A DNA stretch of 64,000 nucleotides, from NCBI GenBank assembly GCA_004123355.1, contig SCHM01000002.1, forward strand, positions 10,637,569 to 10,701,568. Reading direction: 5' to 3'. The position numbers and the translations under genes were made by a program. Within the stretch, counting starts at the first letter, position 1. Each line of letters opens with the position of its first letter. The notes below the pieces were generated by a model. That model searched no databases, was not told the DNA's origin, and saw nothing but the letters and a program-made list of their open reading frames with translations. Of this stretch, positions 1 through 59,044 are shown piece by piece. The DNA is from Amphirosellinia nigrospora. Lineage: Eukaryota > Ascomycota > Sordariomycetes > Xylariales > Xylariaceae.

Positions 1-10027
<10,027 letters not shown>

Positions 10028-10687: not shown

Positions 10688-13600
10688 TCAAGCCTTTAGC
10701 TTTAATTTTTCAAACTCCTCAATGGTCCTCTCATAGTTGTTGACTGCAGTATTCGCCTCTTCTAGCTTCTCTCTTTCGGCAGCCTGCACGACCTCACTAC
10801 TCTTCTCAAACCCATCGCGCTTGATCAGATCCTGTTGTTTCTTAACGACCACCTGCTTTTTCTGTAGTTTTCCCTGTACCTTCTTGATGGCAGCTTCTAC
10901 GTCAGGGATCACGTCGGCGACAGAGAGAAGAACAATGATGTTGTTCGTCACAACAAATACGGCACAACCGGCTGGTACGGCATCTTCCAGGCCTAGGAGC
11001 GATAAGTCCGATAGGACCTTGCCACAAAGCGTCTTGATAGAGGTTATTTGCTTTGTGATGCTTGCGTTTGAGGCTTCATCGGTGGCTTTGATGAATGCAA
11101 TCCCACCATTCTTGATATTGTACTCTGCAGCTAGGGAGCGTAATGCTCGAGTGCATTGGAGACTAAGCTCATAGGACTCGGCTTCTGCCGGGAAGTATAG
11201 GCTGTCCTCGGCGACTGGATAGGTGCTAGCATAATGGATGCTGGGCTGGATGTTGTACCCTCATACTCCGCCCGGGGAAGGCGTTGCCATAGCTCCTCAG
11301 TAATAAAAGGCATGAATGGGTGTAAAAGTCTGAGTGCAACATCTAAAGCCCTGTATAGGGTTTGTTGCACGCTGTCTTGCTCAGTTGCGGTTCCCTCAGT
11401 CAACAAACTCTTGCTGTGTTCGATGAATACGTCGCACAACTGGTCATAGAAGAATCGATGAGCGATCTGAGTTGCCTTTGAGAACTCTCTGGCCTCCAAC
11501 GCCCCATTTAGATCCCTCACGGCACTGTTCATACAATGCAAGATCCACTTCTCGGGGGTCGAAAGGTTGGCAACCTCGAGATTGGTGACAGGTTTGAAGT
11601 TCTCAGGTAAACGACCCATTATGTACTTGCTCGCCTGCCAGATCTTATTGCAGAATCGTCGATAAGCTGCCATAACTTTAATATCAAAGCTGATATCACC
11701 ACCACCCGTGGTGTAGGAAAGAAGAGTAAATCTCAGAGCATCAGCACCGCATTCTGGAATTCCGCTGGGGAATGCAGTTTTCTGATATTTAGCTGCCCTG
11801 GCGATTTCAGTTTCCTTAAGGTTACCTACGCGGAGCTTCGCGTGAAGCGACTCAAGATCAATGCCATGAATGATGTCCAGAGGGTCGATGACATTACCCA
11901 ATGACTTACTCATCTTTCTGCCCTCGGAATCTCGAATTAAACTATGACAGTAGACCTCGCTGAAGGGTACCGATCCCGTAAGCTTGACGCTCATCATGAT
12001 CATACGGGCCACCCAGAAGAACACTGCGCCTCTCGTTAGTTTTCCTGTTATGTAAAAGATCCAACCATTTCTACGGATGCACGCATACGCGCGTTTTTAG
12101 GATAACTTTTTGCTTAAAAACGACTTACTAATGTCCCAACCTGTCTCAAGCAAGCTGGTGGGGAAGAACTTTTGGAAGTCGGGAGTCTCTTTGGGCCATC
12201 CGAGAGTAGCCATTGGCCATAGGCCGGAACTAAACCAGGTGTCCAGACAGTCGGGGTCTTGCTCTAGGCGGAATTGTTTTCCAGGGAATTTAGCAGTCGC
12301 CTTCTCCTGGGCCTCTTCTGGTGTTCGGCCAACAATCCAGCGAGATTCGTCTCCCTCGTCCGACGCTTCTTCGTTCTCAAATACAACATAATACGCTGGT
12401 ATGCGATGGCCCCACCAAAGCTGACGAGAGATACACCAGTCATTGATGCCAGAGAGCCACCGTTGATATGACTTCTCAGCACTTTCCGGTGCTATCTTTA
12501 TCTTCCCTCTTCCACCACCTTAAGGGCGTCGGATGCCATGTCAGCCATCTTGACCCACCATTGTTTCTTCATCAACGGCTCTATAACATCGCGGGTCTTT
12601 TCGCACAACGGTATCGACATAGCATGAGACTCCTTCTTGACAAAAAGGTTTAGTTTGGTTAACTCCTCGACGACCTGGTACCGACAGTCGAACCTCTTCT
12701 GGCCTTGGAAAGTGGGCCGGCGTTTTCATTCATAGTACCATCCCCGTTCAAAATATTGATAAATTCCAAACCGTGGCGCTTTCCCAGCTGGTAATCGTTG
12801 TAATCGTGAGCGGGCGTAAGTTTAACGGCACCAGTTCCAAGTTCTGGGTCGACATAGTTGTCTGCCACGATCTTGAGGAGGCGGTTGGTAAAGGGGTGGC
12901 GCGCATACTTCCCAACAAGGTGAGCATGGCGCTTGTCGTCGGATGAACGGCGATACCCGAATCGCCTAGCATGGTCTCAGGTCGCGTTGTAGCAACCTCG
13001 ACAAATAAGTCACTACCTTCAATGGGATACTTGAAATAGGTCATCTCGCCGAAAGCAACTTTTCTGTCATAGCCGGGTACGTCGAGAAGGGTACGGCCGG
13101 GGATTTCCTTATTATCGACCTCAAGCGAACTCAGGGCCGTCTGAAGGTTTGTGCACCAGTTGACTAGGCGATCGGAACGATAGATCAGGCCCTCGTCATG
13201 GAAACGACAAAAAGCCTCCATCGTAGCCCTGGTGCAGTTTTCGTCCATAGTAAAGGCCTCGCGTGACCAGTCCATGGAACCGCCCATAAGGCGCTGTGCA
13301 TTATTGATGCGCTGGTGGTACTCGTCTTTCCAGTCCCAAACCAGCTTTGTGAAGTTGTCGCGACCAAGCTCGAGTCTCGTCTTTGACTCCTTCTTCCAGA
13401 GCATCTTCTCGACGACGGACTGGGTGCTGATACCGGCATGGTCACAGCCTGGAACCCACAGGGTGTTGATGCCGCGCATGCGATTCCACCGGACGAGGGA
13501 GTCCTGTATCGTGTTTGCCAGGGCATGGCCGCAGTGCAGGGCGCCGGTGACATTAGGCGGCGGCAGCGGAACAACAAAACGTGAGTCGGCGGGCCGGAGC

Positions 13601-13928
13601 TCGGCTGGAAGAAGCCCGACTTCTCCCACCACTGATACCACGACGACTCGACGGCACTGGGGCTGTAGGCGCTGAAGTGGGCGTGGTCAAAGGACTGCAG
13701 CACCTTCTTCTCGCCAGGGGATGTGGGGTCGACGAAGGGCTCGGGCGCGGGCGCGGGCGTAGAGGCGGCTTTCGATGCTTTTTTGCTCGTCTTCTCGGAT
13801 GTGGATGCGGCCGCGGCCGTCGATGCCGGTGCCGACGCCATTCTGAAGAAGTGAGGGTTCCTGAGGCGCGGTGGTGTCAATGACGAGATCGGCCGAGGAA
13901 AACGAAAACAACGGCCAAAGGTGTACAT
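10688..13928 (-). CDS. VAS1: Valyl-tRNA synthetase, probable dual mitochondrial/cytosolic
   Basis: Charges tRNA-Val with valine. Class I signatures are visible: HIGH-type HCGHAL (near 13530), the editing-domain [10 protein letters not shown] stretch near 12965, GWDI plus [14 protein letters not shown] in [10 protein letters not shown] (near 11905), and a C-terminal coiled coil rich in K/E ending EKLKLKA at 10688. One intron at 12024-12128 splits GWDI from MFFWVARMI. Two in-frame starts exist: 13928 adds 29 residues beginning [13 protein letters not shown], rich in R, S and F and almost free of acidic residues, before the second start MASAPAST at 13841. In yeast VAS1 two starts give mitochondrial and cytosolic enzyme, and the same use is inferred here. 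At least five frame changes (near 13600, 12945, 12705, 12505, 11200) interrupt the gene, mostly explained by one missing base. Essential gene, so consensus errors are the likely cause. Confidence 0.93.
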
Positions 13929-20801: not shown

Positions 20802-21624
20802 CGGACTGCTCTACTCTACATTGCCAACCTATAATGCTCTTGACCGAGGTTGCCTCGTACAGCTTCCCGTCTCTAAGCGGCTGACATGGTCAATCCGCAT
20901 GAAGCTTGTGCACAATGAGGCAAATCAGAGTCAATTAAAGGAGCACGGACGAGAATGGATTCCGCCAAGATACTCAGAAGTGTCAATCCAGGCACTAAGT
21001 CTGAAGGAGTAGCTAAAATTAGCGGGTAACAATCTAAGGTAAATCCTCCCAGGTAAGCTGGCTGAGATCAGGGGCTTACGGCGTTTAGCGAATCGGAGTT
21101 TATGAACGCCTGCTAAACTCCGACGCGCCTGTGTTAGTTGTAAGGACCTAATGCCAACCGATCTATCGAAAGGGATAGCGTCGGTAGTCTTGAAGCCAAT
21201 GAAGGTTGATCATGATCGCATTAGATGATCTCAGACGATTTTGTATGTCGTTTGCCAGCAGGGTGAGGTCCGGCAACGGCTGAGGTGCGGTTGTTGGCGG
21301 CTTATACTTTGACCTCATTGCGCCCTACAAGTTTACATGCGTGTAGGTTAAACCACAAAACCCACGTGATGGGTAGGATCAATCCCCTTCGTAGGGAGAG
21401 TTCGGTTCTAGTATCTGCGGTTTATTCACGCAAGAGCTACGGCTGAAGAAAACTAGCTTTCATAAATATCATAGAAAACTTTCACGTCAATTAGGCCAGT
21501 CCCTCTACAAATTAGCACATCTCCCAGTCGACTCGGTATTTCAATCAAACCTCGAAAGGCTTACCACTCTTCTACTTTCACCCATGACCTTGCCTCTCTC
21601 CTTGTGAGCACATAATCAGTCAAG
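20802..21624. other. Intergenic, shared upstream region
   Basis: Divergent promoter region of the ankyrin gene and the dehydrogenase gene. Nothing else is supported; the short open frames here have no coding character. Confidence 0.5.
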
Positions 21625-22479
21625 ATGCGTATCGGTTTCTTGGGTTTAGGCACGATGGGCACGCCTATGGCCCTGAACCTATCTCGCCATTTCCCCGTGA
21701 TAGTCTGGAACCGAAGCTCATCTAAATATGCTCCTCTCACAGATGCTGGCGCCAAAGTCGGTTCTTCACCATCACATGTGGCTCGGGAATCGGATATCGT
21801 ATTCATAATGCTATTCGATGCCGCCGCCATCAAAGACATACTCGACGAACTCAAAACATCGCTCGCGGGAAAGACGGTCGTAAACACGAGCTCCGTCCCC
21901 GAGGAATTTAGCCACTACCTCGCCAAAGAGGTGAGCCAAGCAGGGGGCGAGTTCGTCGAGATGCCAGTGAGCGGTAGCAAATTGCCCGCAGAGCAAGGTC
22001 AACTAGTCGGTATGCTGGGTGGCGACGCCCAGGTGGTGGAGAAGATACGGCCTGTTTTGAAGCCCATCACATGTGCCGCCGTCCACTGCGGTCCAATTGG
22101 CTATGGGTTAAGAACGAAGTACGCCGTGAACCTCTATGTCACTGCCCTCGCGGTCGGTCTCGCCGAATCGATGAACCTAGCAGCAGCCCAAGGGATTGAT
22201 CTCGCTGTATTGGGGGAGGTTCTCAATGCAGGACCCGCGGCTTCTGCGTACTCTCGCAACAAGATCACGAAAATCATCAACCAAGATTGGTCTCCTCAAG
22301 CGGCTGCCAAGGATTGTTATAATAGCAGTAAGCTTATTTGCGAGGCAGTCGAAGCGTCAGGGGCACGATCGCCTCTAATACAAACATGTCGCGCGATGTA
22401 TAAGGAGGCGACCGACGCCGGGTTTGGTGAAGAAGATATGATAGCTGTCATAAAATCCTTATCCAGATCCCCAAAGTGA
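21625..22479 (+). CDS. NAD(P)-dependent 3-hydroxyisobutyrate dehydrogenase-like enzyme, 284 residues
   Basis: Beta-hydroxyacid dehydrogenase family: NAD(P)-linked oxidation of 3-hydroxyisobutyrate or a related short beta-hydroxyacid, or reduction in the other direction. Seen: Rossmann start MRIGFLGLGTMGTPMA with GxGxxG at residues 7-12; substrate motif EMPVSGS at 112-118; and the catalytic lysine region GLRTKYAVN, with Lys165 and Asn169 at the family positions. The residue pattern after the second strand (WNRSSSK) carries an Arg, which in this family often goes with NADP. Length and all motifs are complete and there is no intron or frame break. No mitochondrial presequence precedes the start, so a cytosolic 6-phosphogluconate-dehydrogenase-like oxidoreductase is as likely as the valine-catabolic enzyme. 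The true substrate is open. Confidence 0.9.
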   Translation: MRIGFLGLGTMGTPMALNLSRHFPVIVWNRSSSKYAPLTDAGAKVGSSPSHVARESDIVFIMLFDAAAIKDILDELKTSLAGKTVVNTSSVPEEFSHYLAKEVSQAGGEFVEMPVSGSKLPAEQGQLVGMLGGDAQVVEKIRPVLKPITCAAVHCGPIGYGLRTKYAVNLYVTALAVGLAESMNLAAAQGIDLAVLGEVLNAGPAASAYSRNKITKIINQDWSPQAAAKDCYNSSKLICEAVEASGARSPLIQTCRAMYKEATDAGFGEEDMIAVIKSLSRSPK

Positions 22480-36807: not shown

Positions 36808-39331
36808 TCACTCTTCCCACATTCGCCCTTGAACAGCCTGGAGTTCGGCTTCGGTCATTCTGTGGCCAGTCGTAAAGTATCCTGCCCTACCGGTTAACAC
36901 TCCTTGTTCCCTGTAGACTGACGATCAGCGGGGTGAGGCCTACCGGCAGTGATCTTCGCATCTATTTGACACGTGAATCCGCAGGAATCAACTCTTCAGG
37001 TAGCTCGACTCGCTCGTGTATGGGGATGCTACAGTATCATTTATTAGCCTGGATGGAGACGTATGCAAAACAATATAAGCTTCGTACCCCTGGCCGACTA
37101 TCGCATCATGCTTCATGCTGTGGGGTTTAGTTAGACGGCCAATATCTGTTTTCCAGCGTGTCAACTCACTTGCTCATACTCAGCATTCTATCAATCTTCT
37201 TGATGCCGAGCCAATGAAGGATGTCAGGCATGAGCGCTTGAAATCTCATGTCTTTGACTCCGGCGATATTCTCGGTCCTCTTGAAGTAGTCCGAAGCGCG
37301 ATCTTCGCCACGCTTCCGGGCATTGTATACAACTGTTAAAAGTGTGATTAATAACAATACAGGACTGCCAAGATAAGCACACTGATTCAACGCTTACGAT
37401 ACTACATATTGTGGCGTTAGCAGATCAAAGTCGGAAGGAGGCCAGGCCCGTCGGATACGTACCTTGGTCACTTCACCGAGCGCTCGGCCTTCCTTTCTGA
37501 AATAAATGACAACTCCGCTACCACCATTCTGGGCTTCTTTGACAGCCTCTTCAATGCCAAAGATGAGATACGGCCTGCAGGTGCAGATGTCGGACCCAAA
37601 CACATCACTGCCGTTACACTACATCCCCAGTTAGCCGACCCCCGCTGAAGCACTGCCGTAGGCATGACGTATTTACCTCATCGTGGATTCGCAGAGACAA
37701 TCTCACGTTCTCGTCCGACATCTTGGCTGGGTCTCCAAAGCAGTAAACCGTTAATCCGCCTAAAGAATGTTAAGCACTGTCGTTTGCCACTATCTAGGGA
37801 GTAAAAAACTGCGGTTTACCAATTGGAGGCAAGAAGACTTTAATGTCGCCACGAGTGATAAGCTATTGATGTGAGATAAGATACCATTCAAAAGTTTGTG
37901 GTTTGCGTACCTCGGGATAGCTACCGCCAGTGTGCTCAAAGAGGGACCGACGCAAGACACCCTCGTCTGTCCCAAGTGAATCTCGTCAGAGGCAAAGTAA
38001 CGAATGAAGCTTTAACATCCACATACCAATGCCGAATCGCTCGGCTACTCCTGGTAGATACCAGACCTAAATCCAATGAGCTAGGTTACTCCAAAAAAAG
38101 ACAATCCAGTATGCGAAACAAACTCACCGGCTCCACGGCGAACTTCGTCACTGCGAGTTCTCCGGCCGCGTTCAGACAAACCTTTCCATCAGGTACTCTA
38201 AGAGTTGGTGAGCTCTCAGAACTAAAACAAATTGGGTCGCGTCTTACAATCTACCACTCCGAACGCTCTCTTCGAGCTCCGGTAGCTGTTTGTGTTACTA
38301 AGCCGTTGGTGACGGATGTTCGGTGCCTTCGCTTACCTTCATGTGCGCCTTAGTGATGGCAATGGTTGGCCGGATATCAACTATGCACAGCTCAGTTTAG
38401 CGGTGCTTTGGCGACTCTATATGACACACCAGGGTTTCTTTTCTCACCATTCTCTTTCTGCATGGTATCTGCGTACAGCCAAGGAGCCAGGTGGCCCCAT
38501 GGGTCCATGGCTACAATCTTCTTCTCGTCAGACCATTGTGGGAACGGGCCAATATTCACGGCTGGCTCAGTGTTGGTGAAATCCGGTCTGTGAAGCGAGG
38601 CTCAGTCAGCCATTCACCACAATTTTGTCATGCCATCTTATCACTCACCTATGGTTGACATTGAGCTGTTTGCTCGCAAGGGCGAGCGCAAAATAGATGG
38701 AATATGATCCACCATGTGCTGGAAAGTAGAACATCTATGAGTGCTGGCCGGTTCTCTGTGATGAGAGATTCTTAGAGAGATTCTTACCTCCAATAGCTAT
38801 TATATAGAAAGTTTGTTAGTGACTTGTCATATGAAAAGATCTGGACTATCTCACAATTGCGTTTTCGGATCGTTGATGAAGACCTGGATACCACGACCGG
38901 TCCTCTTTCTGGTCCTGGAGCGCCCCAATTTAGGGGTATGGGATTTATGCCTATTTGCTTCGGATACGTTCTTAAATTCAGTCAGTATAATTCACTTAAA
39001 ATGGACACATGAAGGGATTGGCTCACGTGAGAATGATTCGGGAAGAAAACCCTGCCTTCTCTGCTTGTGCTTTCACGACAGAGCTCTCTTTTGAAGACGT
39101 GGCCAAAGCTGCTTGTGGAAGCGCAGCCTCTGCAGGGAGATTATTCTCGGGTGGTGATTTCTCCGTGAGGGTTGGGCTGGTTACAGGCGGCGCAAGGCTA
39201 TCAAGTCGATGAGAAAAGGACTCGAAATCGGCAGCGATCTTTGCCTGGTTCTCCTGAATAGCCTTCAAAGCCTGAAGGACATCGGCCATACCATTGCCTA
39301 CATTACTCGTATCTGACCCTGAGCTCGCCAT
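36808..39331 (-). CDS. URC1: URC1, GTP cyclohydrolase II-like protein of uracil catabolism, 18 exons
   Basis: Fungal GTP-cyclohydrolase-II homologue; the family member in Lachancea kluyveri is required to use uracil as nitrogen source. Start MASSGSDTSNVGNG at 39331. Zinc-site cysteines CNGSDVFGSDICTC near 37600; KEGRALGEVTKYLVYNARKRG and GIKKIDRMLSMSN follow; end GRMWEE at 36808. Exons: 39027-39331, 38855-38970, 38788-38796, 38649-38718, 38448-38587, 38337-38380, 38248-38285, 38128-38197, 38027-38066, 37911-37966, 37820-37862, 37677-37759, 37463-37618, 37398-37401, 37170-37332, 37088-37117, 36944-37028, 36808-36881. All introns are GT-AG, mostly 50-70 bases. The 9- and 4-base exons restore NSIGAHGG and KYLVYN. 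Protein about 508 residues; only one missing base is inferred (near 36962). Identity secure; the mini-exons rest on conservation and splice sites. Confidence 0.92.
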
Positions 39332-42300
39332 AATGAGGTCGAATCAGTGGAAAAGGAAACAAGCACAGCAGACGTAGTTCGGTATAATCGGGCGTTTATG
39401 GAACAAAGCGTGTAGCGTTTCGGAACAATACTGTCTATTATGGATAGCAGGCTCACGAGAAGTCCAGTGTGAACAATTCAATGTGAGTAAGGAATCACTG
39501 CAGGAATAGGCGACCGTCTGACAGGAAGTTGAACCGGTGATCGGAATGGGCGGCTTGGTTCAACGTCGCTTTGTTGCTTGTCTTATTAGACGGCCCAGCC
39601 CCGCAGATCTGTCTATCTAGTCTAAGTCGGTAAGTAACAGACACGTTCGCTCTACGACTATCTTAGGTTCTCCTATCTTTAGAGCTAGCTGATTACTTAA
39701 GTACTCCAGGCAGTGTGAGATCCTTTGGCATTTGTTGATCTCACTTATCATTCCAAGCAGGTCAGCAGTGCTCTTAGTACGTGGCACGGCGTCATATTTG
39801 AGTAAGTGTTGAGACTGAGCTGAACTAATGAATGGGCAGCGCGTAGGTGGAGTTCCGGGGGGGTTGAGGGGTACGACGCTTGATTAGGTAGCGGATAGAG
39901 GCTCATGCTAACGATATGAGGTTTAGTCCGCAGCGCCCGCAAGCTATAGCTACCGGGGAACTCCGCGGTTAGGTTCCTATAGATATATAGATGCGACCCC
40001 ATACAAATTATATCTCCAAGTTATGATAAGGCACATCTTACCTCTAGACAATAAGTTTAATTCGGGCTGTAATTATTTCACTCATTAACTGATTCCAGAG
40101 TGAGTATAAGCGTACTTGATCACTCTACCGTCTATAAGGTACCTCGCCCTCCACTTGTTTTCGCTTGGCGCTCAGGATAACACAACCCGGATCCCGTGAC
40201 AACAACAGATGCATCCCATGACCTTACAGCTGTCATCTCCACTAAATTGATTCGCGTTTCCATTAATTGATAGGCATAGCAGCCTTTTTTCGTCACCGCT
40301 TCGTTACCTTACAGAAGTCCGACAACGCCTTCAAAGTTCAGGGTGCCCCCAGTAAGGAAATTTCTTCAGTTGTCGTGTACGCTTCTGGAAGGGTTTCGGA
40401 ATGTAATGAATTGTTGCCGGTGGCCCAAAACGTAGTAGCCATCACGTAAGTTCTGCGGCCAGTGTACACCGCAGAGCTGTGTTACAGCTGAGGGATGGCG
40501 GCGGTGACTCCCACGAGGTTAATCTAATCAGAACTTAAACATCGGTACCGGCTATGGGCAGCGAACTTTTGAGGAGTGTTTCGGGAATCCGCAGGAATGA
40601 TTAGAGTGCTCAATTGCACATCCGGAAGCACCCGCACGCACGTGTTCAAGAGGGGCGAATTAAATGTCCCGGTCCATAATGTGATCGGCGCCCGACGCCA
40701 AGATCGCAACTATCATGATCGTACCTGAAATAAACTTAAAAGATATATATCATACCTATGAGGAGGATTAGGCTTCGGGTCACTGGTAAAACTCAAAAGC
40801 TGACTCACCACCTACGATAATTGTATCACTGAATACGAGCCTAAGACGTTTCTATAACAGAGCAGGAGCGTTCGCGAAGCAATTTTGTGCATATAGTATA
40901 AAATCAATTGGCCTACCCCTAGCTCCTCCTGCTCCATCGCTCGATACGTCTCAAAAAGCTCCAGCAATTAGAAGATAGAATTTAGATCAGTTGGAGTATC
41001 AGCCCAAAAAGTATACATGACAAAGCTTATGTAGTTTCATACTTCCAGAACTGTATCACCTTGTAGCTAGGGAAGCTAACAGAGTTATCATACGTCAACT
41101 ATTTGCGATAAACTTACTAGCTATATTAGAATAGGAGAACACTACCTAATTTATTACCTTGTGACCTTAACATTATAGCAAGACATCTAAATGTCAAGCT
41201 TGGTTGTCAATGAAATCAATGCAGAGGTAAAAAATTGTCATTAAGTTTATCTCTACCTGCGAGTACAATTGCCAACTTTGTCTTCGTCATGCTAGTAAGG
41301 CACCAGGCTGTGGGCGTTTTAGTTTCTCCTAGGTGGCTTTTGACTGGTTTCCCTTTAAGTCTACCATGGCAGCCCTATATTTTAAAGATGGTACCAGCAG
41401 TCAAACGTCACTGGCCAGCCATTAAATCTCATGCAATCCCTCCCCACGGCACAATGGTGTGTGCTTTTAAATTGGGACAACAAACATGCCTCAAATATTG
41501 GCACATGATGGCTATCCGTTCTTCCGGTTGGAACTGTAGTCCGTAAAAAATGCCGTGACAGTCTAAATACTGTTGTACCTCTGAGAGTGGACGGGTTGTA
41601 CTATGTGTTATAGAAAAAAACAATCGATATTGTTTGAAAGAGAGTGACATGTTTTATAAATGCTACTAATTCCCGAAAGTAGTAAAACAAAGGGAACTTT
41701 GTTATTATTCGAGAATAAGACTGCAAAGAACTTCACTGATGACAATAGACAAACTGTACCCATGCTCAAACATCAGGAGAGGCTTCTAACGGTCTTATGT
41801 GATGCGACGGCTTTCTGCCCCTTATCCTCGGTGACACTCGACACTTACCTCTGGAATCGAATTCAATCCACTCTCACATACATACATACATACATACATA
41901 CATATTCTTATATCACAGTAAACACACTAAACGCCCTTGTCATAGGAGTTAACGATTAATACAGAGGCAAGAGCGACGCGTATAGCCGCGAATCACTCTG
42001 AAAACCTGACCGATTTCAGAACCTAGATGTGCCTAGAATTTAAAAGCCTTCATAAGACACCACCTAATCTCACAATACCTCACCCGGACCCCCTCGTTTC
42101 ACGTAAACCCCATAGAACCCAAAGCCATGGGAACAAAGGTACTGACAAAAGCCATGGTTAATCTAGGCTTCAGAGGCTTCCTGCTATAGTACACGCTTAT
42201 TCCTCTGATTAGATCACTTGCCATGTAACCCAACACTTGTATTACAGAGCAACGTATAAACTCGAGATGAATCTTCTACCTGCGACTGAGAGTCGTTAAT

Positions 42301-48441: not shown

Positions 48442-50014
48442 AAAACTTTTTTATTTTTTTTAAGTTTAAACTATTATTAAGTTATTTCAATATCAATAAT
48501 TATAATTGCTTTACTTATTAAGCCAAAAAAAAAACCTGGTTTTATTATGTATAGCTAATGTATACTTTATGTATAAATAAATTATTAATAGCTAGGTATG
48601 TAGCCATGTATAAATGGAGCTTTGCAGCAATAGACAGATAGATCAATACACACATCACTGAATCTGACACTTAATACCTACCTAGCTAGGTACCCTACTA
48701 GGTAAGTGCCACCTTGGTAGATGCAAAGTATGCTGTAAATCGTCTAAATTGGCTAACTGGAGGGCTGTATTCTACCTAATCAAGTGGAAGGTTCAAACCA
48801 AAGGGCTTTCAACATCATTGACCAACCCCGCCCTTGACCACATATTGGACTTCCTTGTATTCGGTGGAATAGGCTTAGTCTACCTCATGTAGGTAAGGTC
48901 GAGGCCCGGGGCACTCCGCATTGCCTAGCTTACTTTAGCTTTGAAGGAGATAGGGAGATAGGACTCTTATTACGATTCTAGGTTTGATTCGAACATGACA
49001 CGTGAATCGGCCAAGCGGTACAGTACGCAGAAGGTTACTATTGACCAGGGCCAAGGGATTACACAGGTATCGTAGGTGTGTAGATCAAATATACATAGTG
49101 CTAGATATAGATCTAGCACTGTAATACAATAATCTCAATCTAAGCTTGATTAGCATGATCTAAGCCTCATTAGTCTAATCCAGAGGGGTTCAAGTTGTTT
49201 ACTTCAGAATAAGGTTTTGAAACAGAAGGAGCTATGGTCGGCTGTAGGGACTAATTTAGGATATTTAGGATGGATATATGGATGGGGTCGCATTTCTTTA
49301 CCTACTATGCATCAATAGACCGTCCTCTTGCAGCACTCTCTTGCAGGAAAAGAACCCTTTGCCCCCGACATTAGCCACAACCGGAAGTCCCTTTCTTTGG
49401 TCGCCTGTAGTGGTTGGTTGGTTCCTGCTTATTCGTGGATATCGACATCAACATTGTCATTGCCAGCAACCAATCGCACTTCCTCCCATCTCGCAACTCC
49501 CGGTCTACAACATCATTTTTTACCGGTACGCAACACAATCAAAGTACATACATACACACATACTGAACTCTGTTCCTTTGTCTACCTCAACCTATTGAGC
49601 TGTCAGCCGCCTGCTGCCTACCGTGGGTTTCGTTCGCTTTGCCTACATCCTACCGCTCACTTGCGCTCGATCCACCACCAACACGCTCCGTTGTTCCGCT
49701 CCAATTCATTCGTGACAACCTCTGTTCTCGCGCAACCACATCAACAACGCGAGCCATATCTGGGTAGCGTAAGCTACTCGCTGCGATCGCGACTATCTCT
49801 AGCTCATCTGTTTCGAACTCAATCTCTCTAATCGGGATTGACTAAGTAGCCGGCGTCTAATTCCTGCCTCTAGGGCTATTCCCCCATCTCTCTAGTTGGC
49901 TTATGCCCTGTTCGCATGACCGTAAAAATGAAGCATTCTTGACTCAACTTCCTCTAAGATCTAAGTCTTGCGACGTTTTTTTGTCTCGTCACAAAATCGG
50001 TATTACAGACAACC
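48442..50014. other. Intergenic, WAPL upstream region
   Basis: A+T-rich to about 48640, then TACCTAGCTAGGTACC-type repeats near 48680. From 49280 the strand becomes pyrimidine-rich, consistent with a long 5' untranslated region of WAPL. No gene is supported. Confidence 0.5.
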
Positions 50015-52700
50015 ATGGGAGCTGAATATGAATTCGGCGCACAGCGCAAGAAACGGATGGTGGCCACATATGGCAAGGCTGGAAGGAGGCGGCTACCGAA
50101 GACTGTTTTCAACCCTGTGACCGCGTCCGAGTCCGTGTCCGAGGAAGATCCCATCATTGCATCTGACAGCACGGTAGCACATCACCACCTCCCGCCCGTC
50201 TCTTCGCCGAAGCCCAGATCGCCACCTACGCGCTTCAAAAGCCCCGAATGGCATCATAACACGCAAACAAGACCTACATCCTCCCAAAATATAGCAAACC
50301 TCGATCGAAAGCGCAAAGCGTCACAGATTCACAAGCCCAGAGAACGACCACAGCCGGTCACAGATGGATCAGAAGGTGGGGATCTCTCTTCTGCTCCGGC
50401 AGTTCGTCGATCACGTATCACAGGACCCGAAATTAGACCAGCCACGAAATCGAGCGGTAAGGAACGTACAGCCATTCAACAATACGCTGCGTCTGATCCA
50501 ATGGATATCGAGGCAGTCGAACCCCGGCTCTCCAGTCCTCCACCTACGCCTACGCCACCTAAACCTTCCAAGTTAACAGCTAAACCATCGTCTCACATTT
50601 CCAGACAACAAAAGTCTGCAAATGCGCCATCAGGAAAGAACGCACAGAAACAACCTGTCCAACGGCAACACCAAATACCTCTACATCTCGCGCGAGACTC
50701 GGCTCCAAAATCAAAACAGTCGAATGCGCTCTCTGCTAGAATATTGAAGGAGCAGAGCCGAATTCTATCGATCGAGAAGCCCTCAGTTCCTCATGTCGCA
50801 AAGAAGTCACGGAAACGATTGATAGATGCCCTGGTGGAACAAGAGTCGAGCAATGATGTTACCTTGGGTGAAGATGTGGTCGATTCACAAGCCACCTTGA
50901 GCCAAACGACGCTCAGTCAATCCAGCAACACGTCTGATTTGGATAGCCAAAGTATATCGGAAACCCCTAGACACAAGACCCGAACAGCTCCGGCCACAGG
51001 GATACGCACGTTTACCCGGTCCAACAGCGCGCTTAAATTCACTTATGGGGAAGGGCGAAAAGTGCGTGAAGAAGAGGATAGTCTACTGGAATCCTTAGCC
51101 CTCCCAGAAGACTCGTCTTACTCTCGAAGGCGTTTGGATCTTGGAACCCCCAAAAAGTCAACATCAGGAACGGCAACGTTCGATTTCGATGATGAGGATG
51201 GCACTGGCAAATCACCCGGCTCAAAACTACTGGGTATTCATGAACTTCGGCAAGCTGGTGCCAATTCGCGCGTGGCGGATGCAATGCAGGACCTGGTTGA
51301 CCAACTGGGCAAGCCCGGGACCGGCGCTATGTCATCTCGTCGCGCGGCGTTGGTGCAAGTGGCCGAGAAACTGCGAGACAAGACTTTTATACGACAATGT
51401 CGTGACCATGGTGTAGAAAGTGCGATACTCAAAGATATCGGAAAGGAAGTTGATACTATTTGCAGCTACCTTATCTTGTCTTCGCTCGTTGCGTTTGTTG
51501 CCCGGGGCCCTCCAGCTCACATAGGTCAATTGCTTTGCACAGAAGACGCTGGCTCGATGTTTGCTCGATTGCTTAGCATGAGCGAAGACATCAAGAAAAT
51601 AGCGAAAGACCGCAAAAGTAACCTCTCTAAGCGAAGTCAAAACTCAATTGCTACGATTGAAAGCCTACTTCGAGAAATGCCAATCTGGGATGGGGACGAA
51701 CCTTCATTCATCTCGCCAAGGAGTCTTGCCATTAAATCTCTTCAGCTTCTCATTGCTCAAGGCGTTCCCATTGGCGGAGACTCAACAGTTTTTACAGAAG
51801 CTGTTACGAAGCGTCTTTTCGAGGTCCTCTCAGATGCCAGTAACGATACTGAGTACTGGGATTATCCGAAGACCGCGCGATCAATTGAGCATTGCAGTGC
51901 TCTCTCTGTGCTCGATGCACATGCTGTGAGCGTAGCAGCAACCCGAGGCGGCAATAGTGAATGGGCAGTACAATACCTTCCAATCATAGCCGATGTTTTC
52001 TATACCTCGCTTCAAAAGGCCGCGCACGACGGCAAAATAGTGGAACGCTTGATTTTGAAACTTACGATCAACGTGACGAATAACAATCCTGCTGCTCCTA
52101 GCATCTTCGCCTCGAAAGGACTTTTGCCGGCTTTAGCTTTCTCCATTTCCAGTAACTTCAACCAGGCCTTGGCCCTTATCGCCCAGGGCACATGGGCTGA
52201 GGGATAATAGATAGCCTAGTTCTACGACTCGGCATCCTTATCAACTTTGCCGAGAATAACGGGCTGGTCCGGCAAATAGTAGACGAATGCCAACATGAAG
52301 GTCGTGAGCCGGTAAAAGAGTTAATTCGGCTCTTTATAGAAAATCATCGCCGAACTGGCGAGGTAAGTCATGTCCAGGCTTGTGATTGTGAAGGTAGAGC
52401 TGACGAGCCGTGACCAGGCCGACTCTATGGAAAAGACTCACCTCAACGTAGCCTTCGTTACTTGTCGGTATTACTCGGGTACCTGTCATTACATGGCCCT
52501 GTACGACACAAGATTATTCACAGCCATTCGGCAAAAAGTATCGGCCCCTGGTTGGGTCAATTCGCGAGTTCATCGCTCATTACGAACAGGTGGAAAACGC
52601 CATGAGCGAGAGTGATGATGGCGATGGCCACCACGGCACTTACGCTGAACGGCTACAGGAGTTGGTACAACAATTAGAAGAAAAGGCGGTTCACGACTGA
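50015..52700 (+). CDS. Wings apart-like protein (WAPL), cohesin release factor
   Basis: WAPL opens cohesin rings and unloads them from chromosomes. Start MGAEYEFGAQRKKRMVATYG at 50015, a polar, disordered N-terminal half with many Ser/Pro, then the WAPL domain from about residue 400 (LGIHELRQAGANSRVADAM, LVDQLGKPG, MSSRRAALVQVAEKLRDK, FIRQCRDHGVE, SLVAFVARGPP). After an apparent frame change near 52200 it continues SLVLRLGILINFAENNGLVRQIV, with an intron at 52363-52417, then YLSVLLGYLSLHG, IGPLVGSIREFIAHYEQVE, and ends LEEKAVHD at 52700. Two more single bases are missing near 52465 (G) and 52550 (C). Protein about 900 residues. A clean 2.2 kb first part contrasts with three breaks in the last 0.5 kb. 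Confidence 0.9.
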
Positions 52701-53840: not shown

Positions 53841-54845
53841 ATGCCGACGCCATCAAAGCAGCGGAAAGTCGCTATCGTCGGCAGCCGCTCCGTCGGTACG
53901 ATTCCTCCTCGATTCCTCCCACTCCCGATCCCACTCCCGATCCCACTCTCAGCTCTTCAACCACGAACAGCCCTCTCTCCTACCCTCGCATTATCGTCTC
54001 CCTCTCTCTACGTGCCACACACCGAGTCCTCCGTCCATCCATTGCTGACTATGCGCACACGTCGCGCCCAATACAGGGAAATCCTCCCTCGCAGTTCAGT
54101 TCGTCGATGGCCACTTCGTCGAGAGCTACTACCCGACCATCGAGAACACCTTCAGCAAGGTGATCCGATATAAGGGCCAGGATTACACGACCGAGATTGT
54201 CGACACCGCCGGCCAGGTACGAGGCAGAGCTACCTACTCGCATAAACTCCAATCCACTGACACGAATCCTCGTCGCAACGCAATAGGATGAATACAGCAT
54301 TCTCAACTCGAAACACTTCATTGGCATCCATGGCTACATGCTAGTATATTCAGTCTCCTCCCTCCCATCCTTCGAGATGGTGCAGGTAATCCGCGAAAAG
54401 ATCCTAAGTCACCTGGTACGTCACCTCCCCCCCTCTATCTATATATACCGTTGTACGCCTGTCTTTTATCCTCGCTTCCGCCGCACTCGTTTTCCCCTGT
54501 GTTCCCAAGTTCGATCCTCTCCTCGGATTGGCTCACACTAATCGTGGAATGACTTCATGGGAGGGGGCTTGGCTAACGTATTGGGTAACCCCTCGCTCGT
54601 CGCAGGGTGCAGATTGGGTCCCGATCGTCATTGTGGGTAACAAGAGCGATCTGCGGCCGGAGCAGCGCCAGGTTAGTCAGGAGGATGGGCGCAAGCTGTC
54701 AGAGAAGATCAACTGCGGGTGGACCGAGGCCAGCGCCCGCTACAACGAGAACGTCGGCAAGGCCTTTGAGCTCCTGATTGCGCAGATCGAAAAGTCCCAG
54801 AACCCCAACGAGAGTACCGGCGGTGGTAAATGTGACATCATGTGA
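53841..54845 (+). CDS. Rheb-family GTPase, 187 residues
   Basis: Small GTPase acting upstream of TOR and in arginine uptake in fungi. Boxes: GSRSVGKSS at residues 14-22 (Arg-Ser in the P loop is the Rheb mark), effector loop YYPTIENTF 36-44, DTAGQDEYS 61-69, NKSD 120-123, SAR 151-153, and a CaaX box CDIM at the C-terminus for farnesylation. Exons 53841-53895, 54077-54216, 54287-54415, 54606-54845; 564 bases in frame with no error. Intron 1 holds a short tandem duplication of CGATCCCACTCC. The start MPTPSKQRKVAIVG is the usual fungal one. Confidence 0.96.
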
Positions 54846-56730: not shown

Positions 56731-59044
56731 ATGTCCTCGGGGAATTATACTATGACCTGTCCGCTATGCGGGTTCAAGACAGACCTCGAATATAGCATTC
56801 TGCTGGTAAGTTCGATAACCCTACTAGATTTCCCAACCATGTTCATCTTTGGTGTATTATACCATTCCAGCCCAACAACTACCTACCTAGCTGGCTATTT
56901 AGCGGGTCACTTTACTTACGATGTGCAGCACATGGAAGAGTACCATCCCGAAGGCAAATCCGGGTTTGTTGCAGACCCAGAGCTGGATGGGTCGAGGGAT
57001 AGGGATGGTACCCCAGCAACGGAAGACGCCAACAGCGACGAGGACGCAGAGCTCCTCGTAGACTGCCCGTGGATGGGTGTCTGGAACAGGTCAGCTTGGC
57101 GGAGCTGGAAGACCACATCAACTTCCATGAGATAGCGGAGAACGAAGAGGCGACCGCGGCGGCGGCGGCGGTGGCTGTCGGTGCGCCGAGCGCCGATAAC
57201 GAGAGAGAGTACCACTCCCCTTACTCTCGCCCACCACCAGACGCGGCTCGCTCAAGCCGAGAACAAGAACGCGAGAAGGCGCGGTCGTCGACGCACCACG
57301 ACAGCGCCGTTGATGCTTGGAAGAAGATCTTCAGCCGACGACAGGCCAGGAAGACGAAGGACTCGGAAAGCAGACCGGCCGATGGGAAGGCGCCGCGGAA
57401 GCGTCTTGGTGTAAGACCCCCTTTTGCATTACACTGACTTGTTGAAACTTTCACTAGAACATGGAAGTTGGGCTAATATGAGAACATACCTACCTAATAG
57501 AAATCTGAGCTGGGAAAACATGCCTATGAAAATAAAATGCCAGATACGCTCGTCGAGTTGCTTAAGAAGGGGAAGTATACGAGCGCCGAAGGTTTGTCAA
57601 CGCTCTCCCTTCACAGCCAACCGGGCTCAATAAATGACATAACGACTTGTTCTCGTTCATACATTAGGTTGCTTACAGACTTTCACAGGGATCGTACCAG
57701 TACTCGCAAGACTATTAGAACAAAATCCGTCAACAGAATACGCCTACCTATGCGACCCAGCCGTTCAGCACATCTCCAAATTACGCGGGGAAGGTACGTT
57801 TATCGTACATCTGTGAGCTCAAAACCTGCAATAACATGCTAACGAACCAGCCAGGTGGATTCTGTGGTTACCGTAATATCCAAATGCTCTCATCATACAT
57901 CGTAGGCGCCCGCACAGAGGGCACGGAGCAGCTCGGGAATAAGATCCCGAGCATATTTCGGATCCAGGAGTACATCGAAAACGCGTGGGACATGGGCATC
58001 AACGCCTCGGGGCGGGTAGAGACCGGGGGATAAGGGGACGCGGAAATATATCGGGACGCCAGATGTGAGAATTTCTTGATCCGACTTACACACACCTCTT
58101 TTCGTGCCAATATCTCTCTCCTCTGCTGTACTGAAGTCGCGTAACCTATTCCATCCACTGACATGAATAATCGAATTTCAACAGGCGCAAGCCATGTTTG
58201 TCGGCCTCCAGATCCCGTACGTTTGAACACCCAGCACAGATACTTGCCATGGCGCTTATCTATCTACCTACCTACCCGCCCTTTTGCAAACCCATGCTAA
58301 CAGCAGGGGCTTGAAACGGCGCAGGTGCGAAGTCGAAGGGTTTAAGTCGCCCAAGCACGGCGCGGCCGAAGCGGCGCTCTTCGCGTCGGTGCAGCAGTAC
58401 TTCGAGCGGGCGTCGTCGTCGTCGTCGTCGGGCGACGACGACGCGCAGGACAAGGACAACAAGATCCGCTGCACGAACCTGCCGCCCATCTACTTCCAGC
58501 ACCGGGGCCACAGCCTGACCATCGTCGGCCTCGAGCGGCGGGTCTCGGGGTCGCTCAAGCTGCTCGTCTTCGACCCCTTCTTCCGCGACCCCGACGGCGT
58601 CACCCGGCTCGTCGGACGACGGGACGACAAGGACAAGGACAAGGACAAGGCCGCCAAGGTCCGCCACCACGCGATGCACCGGAGCCCCGACGGCATGCTG
58701 AAGCTGTATCGGAGGGGCAACGATTACTTGAAGAAGTATCACGAGTTTGAGCTTTTGAGGTATATGTTTTTTTTTTTCTTGTCTTGTCTTGTCTTTTCGT
58801 TTCTTGTATTTTTGTCTCGCTGCTTTCACCGCCCTTCTTCGGCTTGCCGTATAGCCAGCGTGGTTTCTTTCTGTTATCTGAAACACCTTTTTGCTTGGCT
58901 GCCCTACCTCTCAAGTCTCGTGCTTAGATTTCCCATTCCCGCCAAGCAAGCGAGTAGACGATCCTCTGAATTCCTCCGCAAAACGCACTCGCAACCGCTA
59001 ACCTTCACGAACCCTTTGGCAGGTTAAAGACTAACACAACCTAA
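56731..59044 (+). CDS. ZUP1/ZUFSP-type C78 deubiquitinase
   Basis: Peptidase C78 family; animal ZUP1 and fission yeast Mug105 cleave K63-linked ubiquitin chains and act in genome maintenance. Start MSSGNYTMTCPLCGF at 56731 with a C2H2 finger CPLCGFKTDLEYSILLHMEEYH, then a second Cys/His unit DCPW.GCLEQ...HINFHE, a disordered basic linker, and the peptidase core: GGFCGYRNIQML (catalytic Cys), NAWDMGINASGR, RGHSLTIVGLE (His), LLVFDPFF (Asp). Exons: 56731-56805, 56929-57410, 57501-57591, 57689-57793, 57855-58064, 58185-58216, 58325-58759, 59023-59044. One G is missing near 57073 and two bases near 58031. The end LRLKTNTT after a 263-base intron is less certain. All three catalytic residues are present. 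Confidence 0.88.

Follow-up and report, generated by a model that had tools for sequence, protein, structure and literature searches.

A predicted 4-base coding microexon in a URC1-type gene of Amphirosellinia nigrospora

Location and anatomy of the exon

Analysis of a 64,000-nucleotide stretch of the Amphirosellinia nigrospora genome (hereafter, the window) indicated that a URC1-type gene, GTP cyclohydrolase II-like by sequence, with high likelihood contains the 4-base sequence TATC as a constitutive coding microexon. This gene is located on the minus strand, at approximately 39.0 to 36.8 kb of the window, in an intron-rich genome of 48.1 Mb (11 contigs). The bases concerned, their splice sites and reading frame, the strengths of these sites and the residues typical of the family were all determined by computation. 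The local features are as follows:

37463..37618, minus strand: upstream coding exon of 156 bases, ending in GEVTK (AAG, then gtacgt)
37402..37462, minus strand: intron before the microexon, 61 bases, GTACGT...TAG
37416..37422, minus strand: branch site TGCTAAC of the first intron, with its A at 37417
37398..37401, minus strand: 4-base microexon TATC, giving the codon TAT (Tyr) and the first base of CTT (Leu)
37333..37397, minus strand: intron after the microexon, 65 bases, GTAAGC...CAG
37170..37332, minus strand: downstream coding exon of 163 bases, starting TT GTA TAC AAT (L-V-Y-N)
37333..37458, minus strand: rival single intron of 126 bases, donor shifted by 4 bases (TAC, then GTATCC), product T-K-V-L-V

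Read along the minus strand, the order is GTGACCAAG, gtacgtatcc, gatctgctaacgccacaatatgtag, TATC, gtaagcg, cacttttaacag and TTGTATACAATGCC, with exon/intron borders on both sides of TATC. Judged from the sequence and the spliced alignment, TATC is a microexon in the sense of an internal exon of at most 30 bases between two spliceosomal introns. The original prediction had set TATC between GT-AG introns of 61 and 65 bases, with TGCTAAC 15 bases from the AG, and had it supply tyrosine and the first base of leucine in frame. All of this was reproduced: coordinates and borders agree, the branch A lies 15 bases ahead of the last base of the first intron, and the spliced product with TATC reads GEVTK-Y-L-VYNARKRG in frame.

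The junctions expected in the three possible mRNAs are:

microexon included: ACCAAG-TATC-TTGTATAC; longer junction word ACCAAGTATCTTGTATAC
shifted donor: ACCAAG-GTAC-TTGTATAC; longer junction word ACCAAGGTACTTGTATAC
microexon skipped: ACCAAG-TTGTATAC; longer junction word ACCAAGTTGTATAC

Skipping of TATC causes a frameshift, with 28 foreign residues followed by a stop, and retention of either or both introns also leads to a stop. Thus, production of the protein requires either the TATC exon or its bypass with valine.

Identity of the gene and residues at the disputed position

A 118-residue piece of the predicted protein, in which the two disputed residues (Y-L with the microexon, V-L with the single intron) had been masked, matches NCBIfam NF005536 (PRK07198, GTP cyclohydrolase II) with E=1.9e-66. 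The score of 224.6 bits lies below the whole-protein cut-off of 403, the scanned fragment being only 118 residues long. RibA families were matched more weakly by the same piece. It also matches the solved GTP cyclohydrolase II chains 7ej3 and 7eev (E=1.7e-52), both of which have F-L at the masked positions. Moreover, columns 17 to 425 (of 429) of a spliced profile built from 72 bacterial homologues align to the gene. By sequence, the gene is a URC1-type GTP cyclohydrolase II homologue, with a putative role in uracil catabolism; a role of URC1 in uracil breakdown is described for Lachancea kluyveri (PMC7530994). A genome search for a second copy found none, its two matches being exons of the same locus. 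Scanning of viral contigs detected no relative, the prokaryote collection yielded bacterial homologues only, and a literature search with three family peptides found no paper.

The bacterial loci read across the microexon site without introns. The disputed pair is Phe-Leu in all 80 loci taken as the best of at least 550 confirmed relatives, and in all of 30 additional loci, although the two sets may overlap. The additional loci were obtained by surveying two phyla, with matches in 6 of 396 genomes of one and 26 of 398 of the other (two of them already counted). Neither Val nor Tyr occurs at the first position in any of the 80 or the 30 loci. Tyrosine nevertheless fits better than valine, since the bacterial proteins carry phenylalanine there and tyrosine is its nearest replacement. 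In the bacterial profile the difference is a modest two bits (0.1 half-bits for Tyr, -3.9 for Val).

Alternative joinings of the flanking exons

We enumerated all GT/GC-AG joinings of the flanking exons that remove either a single intron or two, with a minimum intron length of 30 bases. Only two of the 28 stop-free in-frame joinings have the length of the family: T-K-Y-L-V, made with the microexon, and T-K-V-L-V, made from the shifted donor. Two-step and nested splicing, enumerated for GT/GC-AG removals with the same minimum intron length, gave no third product of this length, and none of the enumerated routes of family length places Phe at the disputed position. It had been argued that the flanking exons alone could not encode the conserved protein text. 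This argument is incorrect, because the shifted donor with the 126-base intron keeps both frame and length, at the price of Val for Tyr.

The main competing model is thus one without a microexon, in which the intron 37458-37333 is removed as a whole and TATC is intronic. Its product has the expected length and keeps the frame. When run splice-blind, the spliced aligner preferred this model to the microexon, as the Tyr/Val gap is modest and one intron is saved. Introns of such length are not out of range for this genome (4 of 39 training introns measure 117-148 bases), and valine, being hydrophobic, might be tolerated at this position. On the other hand, valine would stand where the bacterial loci uniformly show phenylalanine, and the strong first donor, the top-ranking branch site with its acceptor, and the second donor would be left unexplained. 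Taken together with the splice-site scores presented below, these observations make the 126-base intron an unlikely explanation.

Two consecutive short introns standing so close together raise the suspicion of a stwintron. In this or another two-step route, the removal of an inner intron would create the splice site of an outer one, and TATC would not be a separate exon. In the above enumeration of two-step removals, T-K-Y-L-V was obtained only from the two non-nested introns, removed in either order, and from no nested route. Fifteen nested routes give T-K-V-L-V, and the six that were inspected all use the weak shifted donor. A nested arrangement is therefore extremely unlikely.

Splice-site strength

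Models of donor, acceptor, branch site and intron length were trained on 39 other introns of the same genome. Twenty-six of these come from tubulin, actin-like and Hsp70-like genes (75 rows, of which 31 passed the filter, 26 of them distinct). The remaining 13 belong to the URC1 gene itself; of the 16 introns in the splice-blind path, the tested one and the two doubtful terminal ones were omitted. The training introns have a median length of 62 bases.

The first donor, AAG/GTACGT, scores 9.0 bits, above 29 of the 39 training donors, and the microexon's own donor, ATC/GTAAGC, scores 5.1 bits, exceeding 4 of the 39; among all GTs in the window, 7.6% match or surpass it. In contrast, the shifted donor required by the 126-base intron, TAC/GTATCC, reaches only 0.6 bits. 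This value is lower than that of every training donor (one of which reads GTATCT) and is equalled or exceeded by 37% of the 7,344 GTs of the window. The branch site of the first intron, TGCTAAC (10.0 bits), ties with the best of the 39 training introns, and of the 8,158 AGs in the window, 0.26% reach the 14.4 bits scored by its acceptor and branch together. The second intron is less well equipped. Taken by itself, its acceptor is ordinary and exceeds 18 of the 39, its best branch match within the last 40 bases (TATTAAT, 2.4 bits) is weaker than those of all 39 training introns, and the combined 7.2 bits are likewise below all 39 and are reached by 20% of the AGs. Given the weak branch match and ordinary acceptor, splicing of intron 37333-37397 may be inefficient; the same acceptor is used in the microexon model and in that of the 126-base intron.

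When splice-site scores were included, the spliced profile alignment contained the microexon, and the splice-blind gene model, which has the 126-base intron, was set aside. At an intron-opening cost of 1/90 the microexon model led the best one lacking the exon by 17.9 bits, at 1/1000 by 14.4 and at 1/10000 by 11.1; with the 26 housekeeping introns only, the corresponding leads were 15.4, 11.9 and 8.6 bits. Thus, wherever the 126-base intron is the runner-up, it trails by 8.6 to 17.9 bits. When the training set was reduced to the 13 URC1 introns, the lead was 19.7 bits at each cost over a different runner-up, a 1-base exon 'T' between longer introns, which was rejected, its product (T-K-F-V) being one residue short. 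The microexon is the winning model only if splice-site strength is counted.

Probability of such an exon arising by chance

As a null model, the 130-base interval was shuffled 200,000 times with its dinucleotides preserved, and an exon was counted only if its donor, acceptor and branch site were each at least as strong as those of the weakest training intron. Seven shuffles gave an in-frame 4-base exon with the product [FY]-L, 678 gave any in-frame 4-base exon, and 4,496 any in-frame exon of 1, 4, 7 ... 28 bases. Only one shuffle contained an in-frame 4-base exon with sites of at least the observed strength, and none contained such an exon encoding [FY]-L. This test was devised after the case had been seen, and its figures serve as a guide only. 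A genome search for further copies of the 130-base intron pair, as an origin from introners (repeated introns) would suggest, gave no other match at E<=10. The splice-site scores, the alignment that uses them and the shuffles together make the central reading of the original prediction, a 4-base coding exon, the best supported one.

Remaining exons of the gene and an apparent frame break

The spliced alignment revealed a second microexon:

38788..38796, minus strand: 9-base exon (CTATTGGAG), residues S-I-G
38854-38797 and 38787-38719, minus strand: its flanking introns, of 58 and 69 bases
37117-37088, minus strand: exon of exactly 30 bases in the splice-scored model

Four stop-free in-frame GT-AG joinings exist around the 9-base exon, and only the one encoding S-I-G gives a product of 8 to 14 residues. 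Apart from TATC, this is the one exon of fewer than 30 bases in the splice-scored model of the gene.

Upstream, an open frame with a Met (39027-39343, minus strand; MASSGSDTS...) runs into the conserved start of the enzyme and perhaps encodes an N-terminal extension of approximately 95 residues.

Near the 3' end there is an apparent frame break (36970-36962, minus strand), with conserved residues before and after it in different frames. Of the 10 stop-free GT/GC-AG joinings with a single intron enumerated there, not one keeps both conserved parts, and an intact frame to the C terminus was not found among them. Either an error in base calling or a genuine, perhaps recent, event may account for the break, and for this reason full function of this copy of the gene is not certain; the local case for the microexon is unaffected.

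The break does bear on a further explanation, namely that the locus is decaying or mis-assembled and that in vivo the exon is skipped, introns are retained or no product is made. The weak branch match of the second intron and the early stops that result from skipping or retention are in keeping with this. However, the other exons were found open and family-like, and beyond the break residues of the family resume in another frame, again across a GT-AG intron. A single break would fit a base-calling error or a recent event, and we regard decay or mis-assembly as very unlikely.

Proposed splicing mechanism

Inclusion of TATC in the mRNA, the order of intron removal and constitutive use of the exon are inferred here. 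Being short and equipped with a donor and an acceptor each, the two introns are probably recognised as units across the intron (intron definition). According to PMC8378409, this mode is a default for short introns, and in yeast the donor is linked to the branch point by PRP40, whose role in microexon splicing is presented there as a speculative model. The two introns would probably be removed in turn, as an exon of four bases can hardly hold acceptor-bound and donor-bound factors together. With removal in turn, the small size of the exon would be little obstacle, and its inclusion would keep the frame and add Tyr and the first base of Leu within the conserved GEVTK-YL-VYNARKR. The earlier remark that so short an exon is hard for the splicing machinery to define concerns exon definition and applies poorly to introns of 61 and 65 bases, close to the training median.

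It is also conceivable, but decidedly unlikely, that TATC is a control point at which inclusion, bypass with Val or skipping tunes the uracil-breakdown enzyme. If so, its non-triplet length would make skipping a source of null transcripts, and the donor 4 bases downstream would offer a frame-saving bypass with Val.

Comparison with known microexons

Exons of four bases or fewer are already known from animals, plants and fungi, and the TATC exon would add one such case. The closest counterpart is the 4-bp exon of human MPC1, which, like that of TNNI1 and like TATC, is coding and not a multiple of three (PMC9929638). The MPC1 exon is described as constitutively included, as TATC presumably is, and its splicing is reported to persist after shortening to 2 and 1 bp. 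However, it has long flanking introns and is reported to depend on exon definition, whereas the introns of approximately 60 bases on both sides of TATC point to intron definition. The 1-nt microexons of plant APC11 and VPS55 are even smaller, also coding and also missed by annotation (PMC8831610). These are backed by RNA-seq, RT-PCR and conservation, whereas TATC is predicted from the genome sequence and spliced alignment.

Very short coding exons are also described for fungi. Tuber NACHT-ANK genes contain codon-sized ones (PMC4986451), gene models of Phanerochaete P450s include some as short as 6 bp (PMC1184071), and Trichoderma Xlr2 has a 20-nt exon that the public gene model had overlooked (PMC11121469). 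This last exon is regulated and exceeds TATC in length. The smallest exons quoted for Tuber and Phanerochaete are whole codons, in contrast to the four bases of TATC, whose length means that skipping breaks the frame. The view that annotation misses exons of this kind is in agreement with the plant and Trichoderma examples, and long reads are reported to align poorly where exons are very short in Ganoderma (PMC11590231). In the parts of PMC4014442, PMC3990503 and PMC8022950 that mention microexons, these appear only as a setting for RNA-seq mapping. No description of a TATC exon in URC1 was found in the titles and abstract openings of the open-licence papers that the literature searches listed.

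The gene offers a well-defined test case of how genomes with short introns, in which tiny exons are less problematic, splice exons too small for exon definition. It is also a warning for annotation. The rival gene model differs by three bases and places another residue at a conserved site, but would pass the usual checks, being equal in length and frame. The additional presence of the 9-base exon makes this gene a compact benchmark for gene finders.

Other genes in the window

Neighbouring open frames at 3-9776 (plus strand) show successive matches to Tra1 central, Tra1 ring, FAT and PI3/PI4-kinase domains and together represent a large Tra1-like gene. Further Pfam matches were obtained for:

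11134-13686, minus strand: class I tRNA synthetase
21616-22476, plus strand: NAD-binding 6-phosphogluconate/3-hydroxyisobutyrate dehydrogenase domains
49958-52204, plus strand: WAPL
54408-54842, plus strand: Ras
58227-59024, plus strand: peptidase C78
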